Shown: positions 19,865-34,125 of the stretch, piece after piece | How positions within the stretch are numbered: the stretch's first letter is position 1 | How the letters are laid out: the number at the start of each line of letters is the position of its first letter | Assembly: GCF_008042075.1 (NCBI RefSeq) | Contig: NZ_RDBN01000037.1 | Span: 804,828-848,898 of the forward strand | Source: Streptomyces sp. UW30 | Lineage (GTDB): Bacteria; Actinomycetota; Actinomycetes; Streptomycetales; Streptomycetaceae | Reading direction: 5' to 3' | DNA: 44,071 nt | The notes under the pieces: model-generated | Told to the model about the DNA's origin: nothing | Databases searched by the model: none | The model's input: the letters and a program-made list of their open reading frames with translations, nothing else | Translations under genes and position numbers: made by a program

Positions 19865-21259
19865 TTATACGCCCTGACTGACAGAGCTCATGTTGAAATC
19901 GGGGACGCGCAGCGCCGGCATCGCGGCCCTGGTGAAGTAGTCGCCCCACTCCCTGGGCAGCGTCTTCTCCGTGCGCCCGGCCTCGCTCGCCCGCCCCAGC
20001 AGATCCACCGGCGACTCGTTGAACCGGAAGTTGTTGACCTCGCCGCTCACCTCGCCGTTCTCGACGAGGTACACCCCGTCCCGGGTCAGGCCGGTGAGCA
20101 GCAGCGTCGCCGGATCGACCTCGCGGATGTACCACAGGCAGGTCAGCAGCAGCCCGCGCTCGGTGTTCGCGACCATCTCCTCGATCGAGCGGTCCTCGCC
20201 GCCGTCCAGGATCAGGTTGTCGATGGCCGGAGCGAGCGGCAGGCCGGTCAGCCCCGCGCTGTGCCGGCTGGTCGTCAGGTGCCTCAGCTCGCCCTCGCGC
20301 ACCCACTCGGTGGCCGCGAGCGGCAGCCCGTTGTCGAACACCGACTGATCGCCCCCGGAGGAGTGCGCGATCACGAAGGGCGCGGACTCCAGGCCCGGCT
20401 CGTTCGGATCGCTGCGCAGCGTCAGCGGCAGTTCGCTCAGCTTCTCGCCGAGACGCGTCGCGCCGCCCGGCTTGGCGAACACGGTCCGGCCCTCGGCCGC
20501 GTCCCGCCCCGACGCCGACCAGAACTGGTAGATCAGCAGGTCGGCCACGGCGGTCGGCGGCAGCAGCGTCTCGTACCGGCCGGCTGGCAGCTCCAGGCGC
20601 CGCTCGGCCCAGCCGAGGCGTACGGCCAGCTCGGCGTCCAGCGCGGTCGGGTCCACGTCCTTGAAGTCCCGCGTCGAGCGGCCCGCCCACGCCGAGCGGG
20701 TGCGGTCCGGCGACTTGGCGTTCAGCTCCAGCGTCCCGTTGGGCTGGTCGTGCCGCAGTCGCAGCCCGGTGGACGTGCCCACATACGTCGACACCATCTC
20801 GTGGTTGGCGAAGCCGTACAGCTCCCGCTCGCCGGCACGCGCGCGTGCGAACGCCTCGCCGAGCGCCGGGGCGAAGTCGGCGAACACCGTGGACGACGTC
20901 TCGGCCGGGGCGTCCGTGAAGTCCTGGGATGCCGGTACGTCCGCCACCAGCGGCTGCGCGTCCTCGGCGGGCCCGGCGGCGCGCGCGGCGGCCTCGGCGG
21001 CCCGGACCAGCGGCTCCAGCTCGTCCACGGTCACGGCCGACCGGGACACGACACCGGAGGCCGTGCCCTCCTTGCCGTCGACGGTCGCGACGACCGTGAG
21101 CGTCCGCCCGCGGGTGACGCCGTTCGTGGTCAGCGCGTTGCCCGCCCAGCGCAGATTGGCGGTGGACTGCTCGTCGGCGATGACGACACACCCGTCGGCC
21201 CGCGACAGCTGAAGGGCCCGCTCGACGATCTCGTGCGGCTTGTTGGTACGGGCGCTCAT
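19865..21259 (-). CDS. tldE: TldE/PmbA-like subunit of a TldD/TldE metalloprotease
   Basis: A 464-residue TldD/PmbA-family protein lacking the HExxxH motif, so it should be the non-catalytic partner of the upstream TldD. The C-terminal half shows [20 protein letters not shown] and [13 protein letters not shown], typical of the family. In E. coli TldD/TldE form a heterodimer that cleaves unfolded peptides, including microcin precursors and CcdA antitoxin. ATG 21259 has AGGAGG seven bases upstream, but that site belongs to a tandemly repeated unit separating it from tldD. It ends in TAA. Confidence 0.9.
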
Positions 21260-21345
21260 CGACCGGCCTCCTGCGTGGTGTTGAGACTGTGCTTTCCCGG
21301 GGGGTAACCCCCGGACCCCCAGCAGATCGTGATGCTGGCGCTCAT
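21256..21345 (-). CDS. 29-codon mini-ORF B in the tldD-tldE tandem unit
   Basis: ATG 21345 overlaps the stop of mini-ORF A (ATGA) and its own stop overlaps the tldE start (ATGA). The peptide begins MSASITICWGSGGYPPGK and ends in LNTTQEAGR, the same end as TldD. It differs from mini-ORF A by one residue (Ile to Ser) and two silent changes. AGGAGG stands 7 bases upstream of the start. It may be translated only to pass ribosomes on to tldE; no function is known. Confidence 0.5.
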   Translation of the reverse strand: MSASITICWGSGGYPPGKHSLNTTQEAGR

Positions 21346-21431
21346 CGACCGGCCTCCTGCGTGGTGTTCAGAATGTGCTTTCCCGGGGGATAACCCCCGG
21401 ACCCCCAGCAGATCGTGATGCTGGCGCTCAT
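21342..21431 (-). CDS. 29-codon mini-ORF A in the tldD-tldE tandem unit
   Basis: ATG 21431 overlaps the tldD stop in an ATGA and has AGGAGG seven bases before it. The 29-codon frame begins MSASITICWGSGGYPPGK, ends with the tldD C-terminal codons ([10 protein letters not shown]), and stops at a TGA that overlaps the ATG of mini-ORF B. A Gly/Pro-rich hairpin-encoding stretch lies in the middle. It looks like a by-product of duplication that preserved translational coupling. Confidence 0.5.
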   Translation of the reverse strand: MSASITICWGSGGYPPGKHILNTTQEAGR

Positions 21432-22951
21432 CGACCGGCCTCCTGCGTGGTGTTCAGAATGTTGACGCCCTTGAAGAGGGCCGACGGGCAGCCGTGCGAG
21501 ACCGCCGCGACCTGCCCCGGCTGGGCCTTGCCGCAGTTGAAGGCGCCGCCGAGGACGTACGTCTGCGGACCGCCCACCGCCGCCATCGAGCCCCAGAAGT
21601 CGGTGGTCGTCGCCTGGTAGGCCACGTCCCGGAGCTGGCCGGTGATCCGCCCGTTCTCGATCTTGAAGAACCGCTGCCCGGTGAACTGGAAGTTGTAGCG
21701 CTGCATGTCGATCGACCAGGACCGGTCGCCGACGACGTAGATCCCGCGGTCCACGCTGCCGATCAGATCCTCGGTCGACATCCCGGCCGGATCCGGCTGG
21801 AGCGAGACGTTGGCCATCCGCTGCACCGGCACATGGCCGGGGGAGTCGGCGAACGCGCACCCGTTGGACCGCTCGAAGCCGGTCAGCTTCGCGATCCGCC
21901 GGTCCAGCTGGTAGCCGACCAGCGTGCCGTCCTTCACCAGGTCCCAGGACTGGCCCTCGACGCCCTCGTCGTCGTACCCGATCGTCGCGAGGCCGTGCTC
22001 GGCGGTGCGGTCACCGGTGACGTTCATCAGGTCCGAGCCGTACCGGAGCTTGCCGAGCTGGTCGAAGGTGGCGAAGGAGGTGCCGGCGTAGGCGGCCTCG
22101 TAGCCGAGGGCGCGGTCCAGTTCGGTGGCGTGGCCGATGGACTCGTGGATGGTCAGCCACAGGTTGGAGGGGTCGACGACGAGGTCGTACGGTCCCGCCT
22201 CCACGCTCGGCGCCCGCATCTTCTCGGCGAGCAGCCCGGGGATCTGCTCCAGCTCGCTCTCCCAGTCCCAGCCGGTCCCCGTGAGGTACTCCCAGCCGCG
22301 GCCGACCGGTGGGGCGATGGTGCGCATGGAGTCGAACTCGCCGCTCGACTCGTCGACCGACACGGCGGTGAGCTGTGGGTGCAGCCGCACCCGCTGCTGG
22401 GTGGTCACGGTCCCGGCGGTGTCGGCGTAGAACTTGTTCTCGTGGACGGTGAGCAGCGAGGCGTCCACATGGTTGACCCCGTCCGCCGCCAGCAGCCGCG
22501 CGCTCCAGTCCGCCAGCAGCCCCGACTTCTGCTCGTCGGGCACGGTGAACGGGTCGATCTCGTACGACGAGATCCACGTCCTGTCGGTGTGTACGGGCTC
22601 GTGGGCGAGCTCCACCCGCTCCTGCGACCCCGCCGCCTTGATCACCTGCGCGGACAGCTTCGCCATCGCCACCGCCTGCGAGGCGACCTTGGCGGCGGCG
22701 TCCAGCGTCAGATCCACCCCCGACGCGAAGCCCCAGGTCCCGCCGTGCACCACCCGCACCGCGTAACCGAGGTCGGTCGTGTCCGACGACCCCGCGAGCC
22801 TGGCGTCCCGCAGGCGCCAGGACGCGCTGCGCACCCGCTCCAAACGGAAGTCCGCGTGCTCGGCGCCGAGCGCACGCGCGCGTGCCAGCGCGGCGTCCGC
22901 CAGGGCGCGTAGCGGAAGCGCCGTGAAGGCTTCATCGATCGTATGAGGCAC
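21428..22951 (-). CDS. tldD: TldD-family metalloprotease subunit
   Basis: A 507-residue protein, the catalytic partner of TldE. The zinc motif is H269-E270-S-I-G-H274 within LTIHESIGHATELDRALGYE. The C-terminal half has GTLVGYQLDRR, SNGCAFADSPGHVPVQRM and MANVSLQPDPAGMS, characteristic of TldD. GTG 22951 is chosen because GGGAG stands upstream and the sequence MPHTIDEAF starts the conserved part; longer upstream reading is not supported. The stop overlaps the first mini-ORF start. It is divergent from fabG, with 239 bases between. Confidence 0.93.
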   Translation of the reverse strand: MPHTIDEAFTALPLRALADAALARARALGAEHADFRLERVRSASWRLRDARLAGSSDTTDLGYAVRVVHGGTWGFASGVDLTLDAAAKVASQAVAMAKLSAQVIKAAGSQERVELAHEPVHTDRTWISSYEIDPFTVPDEQKSGLLADWSARLLAADGVNHVDASLLTVHENKFYADTAGTVTTQQRVRLHPQLTAVSVDESSGEFDSMRTIAPPVGRGWEYLTGTGWDWESELEQIPGLLAEKMRAPSVEAGPYDLVVDPSNLWLTIHESIGHATELDRALGYEAAYAGTSFATFDQLGKLRYGSDLMNVTGDRTAEHGLATIGYDDEGVEGQSWDLVKDGTLVGYQLDRRIAKLTGFERSNGCAFADSPGHVPVQRMANVSLQPDPAGMSTEDLIGSVDRGIYVVGDRSWSIDMQRYNFQFTGQRFFKIENGRITGQLRDVAYQATTTDFWGSMAAVGGPQTYVLGGAFNCGKAQPGQVAAVSHGCPSALFKGVNILNTTQEAGR

Positions 22952-23097
22952 GGAGGTCTCCCTGCTGTCGTGGCCTGTCGGCCCGATCATTTCGCGTGGG
23001 CGGGCCGCTGGACCACACGTTTCCGGCTGGAGTCGGCATCTTTCTGTAGAGACCCGACAGTCACCGCCGTACGCCACTGTGGGTGCCCGAATGTCCC

Positions 23098-30719: not shown

Positions 30720-33263
30720 GTGGGGCATGGAGTGCCGGAACTCGTACTGGAATTGAATGGAAGGACCTGGACGCTCGACCCGTCCAGGCCCTACACCCTC
30801 GGACGCGATCCGCAGGGCGACATCGTGCTCGACGACGCCAGGGTGTCCTGGCGGCATGCCACGATCAGCTGGAGCGGCCACAGTTGGGTCATCGAGGACC
30901 AGGGCAGCACCAACGGCACGTTCGTGCAGGGCCAGCGGATCCATCACCTGGAGATCGGCCCGGGCTCGGCCGTGCACCTGGGCAATGCGACCGACGGACC
31001 GCGCCTGGACCTCAGCGGCACCGCGGCATCCGTCGCCTCGCCGCAGGCCCAGCCGCAGCAGCAGCCGTACGCCGCGCAGGGCGCCCAGGCGGGCTGGGCC
31101 CAGCAGGCACCTCAGCAGCAGCCCCAGCAGGCACCGCAGCAGCAGCCCCAGCAGGCCGGCTGGCAGCAGTCGCAGCAGGCGGCCCACATCCCGCAGCAGC
31201 AGGGTCCCGGTGGTGGCGCGGGGGCGCCGCCGGTCTACGGCGACCGCAGCCCCACCACGTTCCACCAGTTCTCCATCGGCCGCGTGATGCGCATCGGCCG
31301 TGCGCTGGAGAACGAGCTGGTCGTCTCCGACCTCCAGGTCTCCCGGCACCACGCCGAGTTCCACTCGACGCCCGACGGCCGCATGGAGATCCGCGACCTG
31401 GGCTCGCACAACGGCACGTACGTCAACGGCCAGCCGATCGCCAAGGGCGGCTCGCAGCTGCTGGGCCCGGCGGACATCGTCGGTGTCGGTCACTCGACGT
31501 TCCGGATCGTCGGCGACCGTCTCGAGGAGTTCGTCGACACCGGTGAGGTCTCCTTCTCGGCCCGGCATCTGACCGTCACGGTCGACGGCGGCAAGCAGAT
31601 CCTCAAGGACGTCTCCTTCGGCGTCCCGGAGAAGTCGCTCATCGCGGTCATCGGCCCGTCCGGCTCGGGCAAGTCGACCCTGCTCAAGGCACTCACCGGC
31701 TACCGCCCCGCCAACCAGGGCGACGTCCTCTACGACAACCGGAACCTCTACAAGCAGTTCGCCGAGCTGCGCCAGCGCATCGGTCTGGTCCCGCAGGACG
31801 ACATCCTGCACAAGGAGCTGACCGTCAAGAAGGCCCTCAAGTACGCGGCCAAGCTCCGCTTCCCCGCCGACACCACGGGCAAGGAGCGCGACGCCCGTAT
31901 CGACGAGGTGCTGCGCGAGCTGAAGCTGGACATCCACAAGGACAAGAAGGTCACCTCCCTGTCCGGCGGCCAGCGCAAGCGCGTCTCGGTCGCCCTGGAG
32001 CTGCTCACCAAGCCGTCGCTGATCTTCCTGGACGAGCCCACGTCGGGCCTCGACCCGGGCATGGACCGCGACGTCATGCAGCTGCTGCGCGGCCTCGCCG
32101 ACGACGGCCGTACGGTCCTCGTCGTCACCCACTCGGTGGCCGAGCTGGCGATCTGCGACAAGCTGCTGGTGATGGCCCCGGGCGGTTCGGTCGCCTACTT
32201 CGGTCCGCCGGAGGAGGCGCTGAACTTCTTCGGCTACGACACCTGGGCCGACGTCTTCTCCGCCTTCGAGAACTACCGCGACTACGACTGGGCCGGACGC
32301 TGGAAGGGCTCGCAGCACTACCAGATGTACGCCGCGGACATCGACGCGATTGCTCCGCAGTCCGTACAGGTGCCGCCGATGCAGGCGATGAAGCCGCCGA
32401 AGCCGCAGGGCTGGCTGTCGCAGTTCCTCACACTGGTGCGCCGCTATGTGTCGGTGATCGCGTCCGACAAGGGCTTCCTGGCCCTGATGGTGATCCTGCC
32501 GGGCGTGCTCGGCGCGGTGAGCCTGCTCATCGACTCGGGCAAGGGCCTGCTGCCCAACGCGCCCAGCCCGCAGACCGGCCGGATCATCCCGAACGGCACG
32601 GCCACCACCGTGCTGCTGATCCTCGCGGTCGGCGCCTGCTTCGCCGGCGCCGCGAACTCGGTGCGTGAGCTGATCAAGGAACGGGTCATCTACGAGCGGG
32701 AGCGCGCGACCGGCCTGTCGCGCTCGGCGTACCTGATGTCCAAGGTCTTCGTGCTCGGCTTCATCACCGTGCTCCAGGGCCTGATGGTCGGCGTCATCGG
32801 CTTCGCCAGCCGGGAGATCCCGGAGGAGGGCCTGGTCTTCGGCAAGCTGACGCTGCTGGAGCTGTCGGTGCCGATCATGGCGCTGGGCTTCACCTCGATG
32901 ATGTTCGGCCTGATCATCTCGGCCCTGGTGAAGACCGCCGAGAAGACCATGCCGCTGCTGGTCATGTTCGCGATCATCCAGGTCGTGTTCACGGGCTGTC
33001 TGTTCGCCCTGAACGGCTCGATCGGCGCCAACCAGATCTCGTATCTGATGCCGTCGCGTTGGGCCGTGGGCGCCGCGGGCGCCACGCTGGACTTCAACAA
33101 GATCAGCCCGCCCGGCCAGGGCGAGAGCAACGACCCGCTGTGGGAGCACACGGTCGGCGTCTGGGCCATGGACATGATCGCCCTGATCGTGCTCGGTGTG
33201 ATCTGCGGCATCTTCGTGGCCCGCTTCCTGCGCCGCCACGAGCCCGAGGTCATGCGCAAGTAG
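30720..33263 (+). CDS. ABC transporter with two N-terminal FHA domains (Rv1747-like)
   Basis: An 847-residue fusion. FHA1 (about 20-90) has YTLGRDPQGDIVLDDARVSW and GSTNGTFVQG; a Gln/Pro/Ala linker follows (about 100-180); FHA2 (about 195-265) has GRALENELVVSDLQVSRHHA and GSHNGTYVNG. The ABC domain shows Walker A GPSGSGKST (about 311-319), LSGGQRKR and LIFLDEPTSGLDPGM; about six C-terminal membrane helices follow, as in ABCG half-transporters. FHA domains bind phosphothreonine, so Ser/Thr kinases probably control it, as for Mycobacterium Rv1747. GTG 30720 is used; TAGACT at 30681-30686 may be its -10 box. Confidence 0.93.
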   Translation: MGHGVPELVLELNGRTWTLDPSRPYTLGRDPQGDIVLDDARVSWRHATISWSGHSWVIEDQGSTNGTFVQGQRIHHLEIGPGSAVHLGNATDGPRLDLSGTAASVASPQAQPQQQPYAAQGAQAGWAQQAPQQQPQQAPQQQPQQAGWQQSQQAAHIPQQQGPGGGAGAPPVYGDRSPTTFHQFSIGRVMRIGRALENELVVSDLQVSRHHAEFHSTPDGRMEIRDLGSHNGTYVNGQPIAKGGSQLLGPADIVGVGHSTFRIVGDRLEEFVDTGEVSFSARHLTVTVDGGKQILKDVSFGVPEKSLIAVIGPSGSGKSTLLKALTGYRPANQGDVLYDNRNLYKQFAELRQRIGLVPQDDILHKELTVKKALKYAAKLRFPADTTGKERDARIDEVLRELKLDIHKDKKVTSLSGGQRKRVSVALELLTKPSLIFLDEPTSGLDPGMDRDVMQLLRGLADDGRTVLVVTHSVAELAICDKLLVMAPGGSVAYFGPPEEALNFFGYDTWADVFSAFENYRDYDWAGRWKGSQHYQMYAADIDAIAPQSVQVPPMQAMKPPKPQGWLSQFLTLVRRYVSVIASDKGFLALMVILPGVLGAVSLLIDSGKGLLPNAPSPQTGRIIPNGTATTVLLILAVGACFAGAANSVRELIKERVIYERERATGLSRSAYLMSKVFVLGFITVLQGLMVGVIGFASREIPEEGLVFGKLTLLELSVPIMALGFTSMMFGLIISALVKTAEKTMPLLVMFAIIQVVFTGCLFALNGSIGANQISYLMPSRWAVGAAGATLDFNKISPPGQGESNDPLWEHTVGVWAMDMIALIVLGVICGIFVARFLRRHEPEVMRK
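31107..31154 (+). repeat. 24-bp in-frame tandem repeat coding APQQQPQQ
   Basis: Two copies, differing by one base, in the Gln-rich linker of the FHA-ABC protein. Such a repeat can change length by slippage without frameshift. Confidence 0.8.
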
Positions 33264-33351: not shown

Positions 33352-34125
33352 TCAGTACGCGCTGTTGACGTTGTCGATCGAGCCGTACCGGTCGGCCGCG
33401 TAGTTGGCGGCGGCGGTGAGGTTGGCGACCGGGTCGTACTGGCTCTTGGCCGTGCCCGGGACGTGGTACGCGTCGAAGGTCGGCTTGATGACCTGGAGCA
33501 GACCGATCGACGGGACGCCGTTCTGGGCGTTGATGTCCCAGTTGTTGATCGCGTTCGGGTTACCCGAGGACTCCCGCATGATGTTCTTGTGCAGGCCGTT
33601 GTAGGTGCCCGGGATGTCGTGCTTCTTCATGATGTCGAGCGCCTCGCGGATCCAGCCGTCGAGGTTGTTCGCGTAGGTCTTGGCGGCGACCTGCTTGACC
33701 GCGACGCGCTTGGCGGACCGGCTCGCGGCCTCCTCCGCCTTGCGCTCGGCAGCGGCCTTCTTCGCGGCGGCGGCCTTGGCGGCCCGCTGCTTGGCGGTGG
33801 CCTGGGCGGCCACGTGCTTGTCGTGGGCCACGGCGGCCCGGTGCTTGGCGGCGGCCACAGCGGCCTTGTGCTTGGCCACCATCGCCTCGGCCTTCACCTT
33901 GTCGCCGGCGAGCTGGTCGGTGACGCTGCCCTTGACGTCCTTGATCTGCTCGCTGCTGTAGGCCACCTTGCCCGCGGGGGCTTCGGCCGTGGTCGTCTGT
34001 GCGTTGCCGGGGACGGCGGACAGTGCCAGAGCGGCGGCGCCGAGCGTACCCACGCCGGCGATCGCGATCTTCTGGCGCTTGGTTATGGCACGACTGAGGG
34101 CACGGTTCTTGGTGTTCTTGAGCAT
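33352..34125 (-). CDS. Secreted lytic transglycosylase (SLT domain)
   Basis: 257 residues. A basic N-terminus (LKNTKNRALSRAITKRQK) and hydrophobic stretch (IAIAGVGTLGAAALALSA) form a signal peptide. A long Ala/Lys/His/Arg-rich helical region (about 70-150, with repeats like AKHKAAVAAAKHRAAVA) precedes the C-terminal SLT-like domain (about 165-257) with catalytic Glu in MRESSGNPNAINNWD and the family stretch GLLQVIKPTFDAYHVPG. It should cleave peptidoglycan, as for cell-wall remodelling during growth or germination. ATG 34125 has AGAGG upstream. A structured leader precedes it. Confidence 0.9.
   Translation of the reverse strand: MLKNTKNRALSRAITKRQKIAIAGVGTLGAAALALSAVPGNAQTTTAEAPAGKVAYSSEQIKDVKGSVTDQLAGDKVKAEAMVAKHKAAVAAAKHRAAVAHDKHVAAQATAKQRAAKAAAAKKAAAERKAEEAASRSAKRVAVKQVAAKTYANNLDGWIREALDIMKKHDIPGTYNGLHKNIMRESSGNPNAINNWDINAQNGVPSIGLLQVIKPTFDAYHVPGTAKSQYDPVANLTAAANYAADRYGSIDNVNSAY

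Follow-up and report, generated by a model that had tools for sequence, protein, structure and literature searches.

How can a tandem repeat be accommodated between two genes that are joined by a stop–start overlap without severing the link between them? The question is posed by the tldD-tldE junction of Streptomyces sp. UW30, which lies within the 44,071-nucleotide stretch of DNA analysed here (the window) and belongs to a genome of 9.9 Mb in 190 contigs (G000). Between the two genes, on the minus strand, two complete 86-bp units are followed by a terminal piece of 35–39 bp, forming a tandem array at 21251-21462 (period 86, 2.5 copies, 97% matches) that scores 403, compared to 125 for the second-best array of the window; other tandem repeats are found at 31099-31180 and 33750-33876, with periods of 12/24 and 27/54. 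Each complete unit is read as a mini-ORF of 29 codons, and tldD, mini-ORF 1, mini-ORF 2 and tldE are connected by three ATGA overlaps, with the motif AGGAGG positioned 7 nt 5' of the ATG of mini-ORF 1, mini-ORF 2 and tldE alike. Both units carry the hairpin CCGGGGG-N4-CCCCCGG, and the two mini-ORFs differ at 3 bases, of which TAT/TAC and CTG/CTC are silent and ATT/AGT exchanges I for S. A sequence-only reading made beforehand had described this arrangement of two full units and a partial one, and every one of its sequence details checks out, the coordinates being right to within 1 base. Short-read assemblies can mishandle tandem repeats, and an assembly artefact might be suspected in a genome of 190 contigs; however, the two copies differ at the said 3 bases and two-unit arrays also occur on single long contigs of genomes G135 (locus L009) and G272 (L012), which leaves an artefact with a practically negligible probability.

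The reading that we favour, at a probability of roughly 80%, is that a small dispersed repeat, here termed E, inserted with duplication of its target, and that at coupled junctions such an insert would become a relay of mini-ORFs. Each unit contains E, a palindromic repeat of about 40 bp with a sequence of about CGGCYGGGGGTCCGGGGGNNNNCCCCCGGNNNNGCACAGC, and is flanked by copies of a segment termed J, which in its original copy J1 comprises the end of tldD with the Shine–Dalgarno sequence AGGAGG, the ATGA and the initial tldE codons (Table 1).

Table 1. Features of the tldD-tldE junction, in window coordinates.
Feature	Position	Strand	Basis or remark
tldD, 3' end carries J1; stop 21430-21428	21428..22957 (5' end approximate)	minus	PmbA_TldD Pfam domains
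J1, original copy of the duplicated segment	21423..21457	minus	direct repeat, period 86; in empty genomes tldD directly overlaps tldE
Mini-ORF 1, 29 codons, ATGA overlap at each end	21342..21431	minus	sequence
Filler 1, between J1 and E; missing from empty sites	21411..21422	minus
E copy 1, dispersed palindromic repeat, 3' end at GCACA	21374..21410	minus	family and boundary comparison
J2, second copy of the duplicated segment	21337..21371	minus	direct repeat
Mini-ORF 2, 29 codons, ATGA overlap at each end	21256..21345	minus	sequence
Filler 2	21325..21336	minus	sequence
E copy 2	21288..21324	minus	sequence coordinates
J3, third copy; source of the tldE Shine–Dalgarno sequence and start codon	21251..21285	minus	direct repeat
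tldE, ATG at 21259	19865..21259	minus	PmbA_TldD Pfam domains

The array had initially been taken for a local duplication, and plain slippage of the tldD end and tldE start, with the frame pattern described below as a product of chance or shared descent, fits the perfect period of 86 and the near-identical copies; many of the sequences compared are, moreover, related by ancestry. The duplication itself stands, but the 48 bases in the middle of the unit trace to an insertion with a dispersed repeat and a target duplication, not just to tandem duplication. A search for these middle bases elsewhere in the genome, as had been suggested, finds the E core pattern at further places (12 exact matches in the genome, compared to 0 for a reversed control). 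The 139 sampled copies of E group into 52 places, 20 of which have J, and there the part outside J recurs between other duplicated flanks at unrelated genes. Empty sites lack the part outside J, and the frame is held at all seven unit lengths seen at tldD-tldE. These findings argue against plain slippage, which is already contradicted by one E core lying between different duplications at unrelated genes, and we deem it very unlikely.

E is conserved over 51 aligned places, from six bases before GGGGTCC through the C of GCACAGC, the conservation of its central letters being built in by the search pattern itself, and comparison of places shows a fixed 3' end. A longer E pattern matches 35 places in 27 of 101 genomes of the genus. 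Scanning the genomes of 84,980 species yields at least 120 loci with the E core; among the 80 matches listed by title, 78 are Streptomyces, one is an 'Actinobacteria bacterium' and one a 'Streptosporangium'. E matches occur in 7 of 121 genomes sampled from the family (2 of these outside the genus) and in 2 of 118 sampled from the class, both within the genus, and the exact core is found in none of 110 sampled class genomes outside the genus. E thus occurs almost only in Streptomyces. Among the open-access papers listed by literature searches none appears to describe it, no plasmid copies were found, and Rfam covariance models gave no match up to an E-value of 1 at window positions 20900-21800.

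The insertion leaves a characteristic signature. Directly 3' of E, a copy of upstream sequence (J) is present for 58 of 101 distinct E copies, compared to 9, 3, 3 and 2 of 101 at offset controls of 100, 150, 200 and 300, and for 76 of 139 in an enlarged set. Clustering sorts these 76 into 21 groups, among them one array of adjacent E copies. The triplet preceding J is TTC in 12 of the 21 groups and TTT in one (background TTC 1.0%), and T occupies position -2 in 20 groups and position -3 in 17; at tldD-tldE it is ATC, ATT or ATA, not TTC. J begins on a codon boundary in all 11 groups that have a called gene, which is explained by the TTC-like target being mostly an in-frame Phe codon, as are 31 of the 34 TTC triplets in tldD and tldE. 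J measures approximately 22–106 nt and the filler between J1 and E 0–98 nt. For the remaining 63 of 139 copies there is no J within 450 nt, and a comparison over the whole locus (3 to 8 kb) revealed no convincing copies; the best J-like matches reach 20/24 (L103, downstream) and 19/24 (L127, upstream), those of 23–24/24 being E beside E.

Orthologous empty sites hold J a single time at the two junctions concerned, tldD-tldE and one between an ABC ATPase and its ABC-2 permease (domains assigned from a relative, L081). At the latter, E is found in G140 (3 units) and G274 (2 units), where the mini-ORFs end in the C-terminus of the ATPase itself; the two query halves match pieces that overlap by 21–64 nt in 47 of 61 genomes (a hand count that includes the UW30 genome, with an overlap of 32 nt). 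Among 33 parsed loci of this junction, three of which were chosen because they are occupied, 25 are empty and 8 have 1–3 units, and all 33 chains are intact. The longest array that we have seen also lies at the ABC ATPase-permease junction, in Streptomyces sp. A3M-1-3 (L159, 818-1311), with six exact copies of E at 92-bp spacing.

Among the J-bearing places are many gene ends without coupling, as well as tRNA genes and other sites. In the UW30 genome, E lies 3' of two tRNA-Lys genes and of a gene identified by eye as alpha/beta-hydrolase-like, the upstream sequence being repeated directly after E in each case, whereas no such repeat was found at three further E matches (L062, L063, L066). At the tRNA-Lys loci (L043 and L044; C141:592500-597500 and 613500-617800) the 3' half of the tRNA and a downstream stretch are duplicated around E, leaving partial tRNA copies, and L043 has two copies of E at 177-bp spacing. 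The youngest-looking insertion, L079, has a J identical at 84 of 84 positions and a filler of 85 nt. The filler might represent transduced donor DNA, an idea that we rejected: that of L079 has no other good copy in its own genome, and none of the matches listed from 60 others spans it. A second short repeat near this insertion (approximately 1700-1750 of L079) matches further places in many genomes and may constitute another dispersed family. Taken together, these features make E look like a mobile element that prefers certain sites and duplicates a long target of variable length. A HUH/Y1 transposase as its obligatory partner is not supported; PF01797 matches occur in 15 of 61 genomes, UW30 included, and in none of the E-bearing genomes G006, G014, G027 and G060.

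The E copies of the window lack stop codons in all three frames, and the reading frame of the units is therefore free to serve as a test. The duplication carries a Shine–Dalgarno sequence and a start codon at four coupled junctions (TldD/TldE, ABC ATPase/ABC-2 permease, two BPD permeases, and FecCD permease/ABC ATPase), and there the insert becomes a mini-ORF. Junctions were called coupled if they had ATGA or GTGA on both sides, a following ORF of 60 codons or more and distinct flanks. Of 94 records, 53 are coupled and 27 uncoupled; the 14 in neither count, all 2 mod 3 in length, are 12 first units of arrays, which have the next mini-ORF downstream, together with L115 and L222, and cases without a real downstream gene (L173, L115) were left out of the final count. 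A unit length of 2 mod 3 with an intact relay is found in 51 of 53 coupled records, and that length in 7 of 27 uncoupled ones; the row-level Fisher value of 4.6e-11 overstates the difference because the rows share descent. Collapsed to the four junctions and their unit lengths, 13 of 15 are 2 mod 3 (binomial p = 3.1e-5), compared to 7 of 20 distinct uncoupled lengths (Fisher p = 0.005). The two exceptional coupled records are L185, with a unit of 103 bp in which the relay is broken, and L142, the 99-bp unit of which reads in frame into the downstream gene instead. Only at coupled junctions does the unit contain a small ORF that shares 4 nt with each neighbour.

The tldD-tldE junctions of other Streptomyces, a comparison that the sequence-only reading had called for, were surveyed with a 231-bp query against 295 genomes, 276 of which matched. 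At least one unit is spanned in 45 of the 295, UW30 included (rows counted by hand), a minimum because diverged units could escape detection. A script parsed 44 of these 45, finding one unit in 38 and two units in 6, and L055 was inspected by eye; the chain from tldD through ATGA, mini-ORF(s) and ATGA to tldE is intact in all 45 detected occupied genomes, with GTGA in a few, and unit ORFs of 28, 29, 30, 31, 32, 37 or 39 codons keep the frame at all seven lengths. Together with the 2 mod 3 rule, which coupled junctions obey and uncoupled ones do not, this supports the earlier proposal that a mini-ORF relay would keep tldD coupled to tldE. In L055 (G079:C1:1369400-1372500) the tldD 5' of the relay is unusually diverged, with SHPCPSALL for the usual SHGCPSALF; it is possibly in decay, with the relay still whole. 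Of 103 tldD-tldE loci, 99 were parsed, the other four being L055, L253, L256 and L040. tldD directly overlaps tldE in 55 of the 99, which is not an occupancy rate because loci were hand-picked (60 were chosen from the match list, 4 occupied and 56 with a short match only); L253 and L256, in which the motif failed and tldE is present, are by eye empty as well. In L040 (G063:C1:2101500-2105000, approximately 1560-1640), E, J and tldE are present with an unrelated gene in place of the upstream tldD, as if a rearrangement had ended at or near E.

Do the mini-ORFs matter for what they encode? TldD and TldE are peptidases, and a function for the encoded peptides, perhaps as TldD/TldE protease substrates, would be in keeping with the conserved core GSGGxPPGxHS and C-terminus of the tldD-tldE set. 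The identical core, however, also appears at the unrelated transporter junctions, as follows from the E palindrome, and the mini-ORFs are absent from 55 of the 99 parsed genomes. In ten related mini-ORFs of one clade, pN/pS amounts to 1.39 in the N-terminal filler codons, 0.38 in E codons and 0.15 in J codons. On this codon pattern we reject a peptide function, and with it the earlier suggestion of two meaningful short peptides; its probability is minimal. As the frame is kept and the leader peptide is not conserved, the frame rather than the leader peptide appears to be under selection.

Alternatively, the insert could be retained as a regulatory device: acting as a hairpin attenuator or as a spacer, it would reduce TldE or adjust the TldD:TldE ratio. 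Its variable copy number would suit such a role, as would the stable hairpin, the 47-nt stretches of the two window units folding at -17.3 and -16.1 kcal/mol, though z-scores of about -1.8 and -1.6 put this folding not far from that of shuffled sequences. Against it, a scan for terminator-like and sigma-70-like promoter sites, the only promoter type that it covers, found none in the unit, E also sits at many unrelated genes, and occupancy is scattered: on a tree of the 99 tldD-tldE sequences, presence must have changed 19 times or more (16 are forced by starred branches, and shuffling gives a mean of 32.7), and units are missing from the five rows closest to the window genome, the first being L243 at 95% identity. 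We consider retention for regulation improbable. The scatter indicates that units come and go, on a tree that does not separate gain from loss. The prediction of variable copy number is upheld across species rather than strains, with 0, 1 or 2 units at tldD-tldE and six exact cores elsewhere.

Under the favoured reading of insertion and relay, E would insert and a segment starting upstream, usually just after a TTC-like triplet, would become copied behind it. At a coupled junction this segment comprises the last codons of the upstream gene, the Shine–Dalgarno sequence and the ATGA/GTGA stop/start; as it holds gene end, Shine–Dalgarno sequence and start, both neighbours remain intact and the insert becomes a mini-ORF that starts on the stop of the upstream gene and stops on the start of the downstream gene. 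We infer from these sequences a hand-over of ribosomes along the mini-ORFs, whereby those ending tldD would restart at mini-ORF 1, then at mini-ORF 2 and then at tldE, and passing ribosomes would open the GC hairpin. Inserts that break the relay would be selected against, with no visible selection on the peptide. Judging from the scattered occupancy, the flanking J repeats would permit units to be added or removed precisely, with the ATGA restored; in the window, the left edge of J2 (CATTCTG) is similar to that of J1, and this similarity needs gene conversion or a route other than simple unequal crossing-over.

More speculatively, E might belong to a novel class of minimal mobile elements in bacteria, 40 nt in length, with a fixed 3' end, a nick-like TTC target and long, variable duplications reminiscent of target-primed reverse transcription. 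Since TTC is nearly always read as Phe, E would land in the reading phase, and since the duplication rebuilds the gene ends, it could enter coupled operons at next to no cost and depart from them by exact recombination; we advance this as a tentative idea, possible but short of probable. The findings add to the small repeats of Streptomyces one with an unusual target duplication, and selection appears to act on translational coupling itself, the frame and the ATGA overlaps being kept while the leader peptide is free to change. The unit frame may serve as an in-genome assay for which gene pairs need coupling, and all four coupled junctions found encode partner subunits.

Several families of small bacterial repeats invite comparison. 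The target duplications of MITEs usually comprise a few bases, whereas those of E are variable and span approximately 22–106 nt, and E has only a 4–5 bp terminal inverted match (GGCTG/CAGCC, in the L079 fold). E units nevertheless resemble MITEs and the enterobacterial repeat units RU-1 to RU-3, described as non-autonomous small repeats with ORFs able to fuse in frame (PMC2759123), in being small repeats that carry ORFs. REP sequences and GTAG- and CGTC-tagged palindromes, which are linked to RAYTs and are described as small palindromic dispersed repeats of 20–40 bp (PMC3733652), are likewise small, palindromic and dispersed; a GTAG or CGTC tag at a fixed position was not present in an alignment of 51 independent places that extends from 25 nt 5' of E to 15 nt 3' of it, and, unlike REP sequences, E has long duplicated flanks. 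The genomes that carry E include several without Y1 transposase matches as well as UW30, which has such a match.

The closest known kind are the mycobacterial MIRUs, which are portrayed, for example at senX3-regX3, as short, dispersed and apparently mobile, with an internal ORF that overlaps its neighbour by 4 nt such that coupling survives insertion (PMC12548453). Their arrays vary in copy number at senX3-regX3 and rnc-fpg1 (PMC4213456, PMC2734929), and longer arrays are reported to accompany higher fpg1 expression (PMC2734929). E, a dispersed repeat of approximately 40–100 bp that also occurs in tandem, shares with them short, dispersed units in variable tandem number and an ORF overlapping its neighbour by 4 nt. 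It differs in its core, a 40-bp palindrome, and in its unit ends, which duplicate the end of the host gene itself and consequently differ at every place. Nor does E share the MIRU habit of insertion at the start codons of coupled genes; its insertions tend to come after a TTC-like triplet located 5' of the stop, and uncoupled junctions receive them too. Likened by description, E works like a MIRU without being filed as one.
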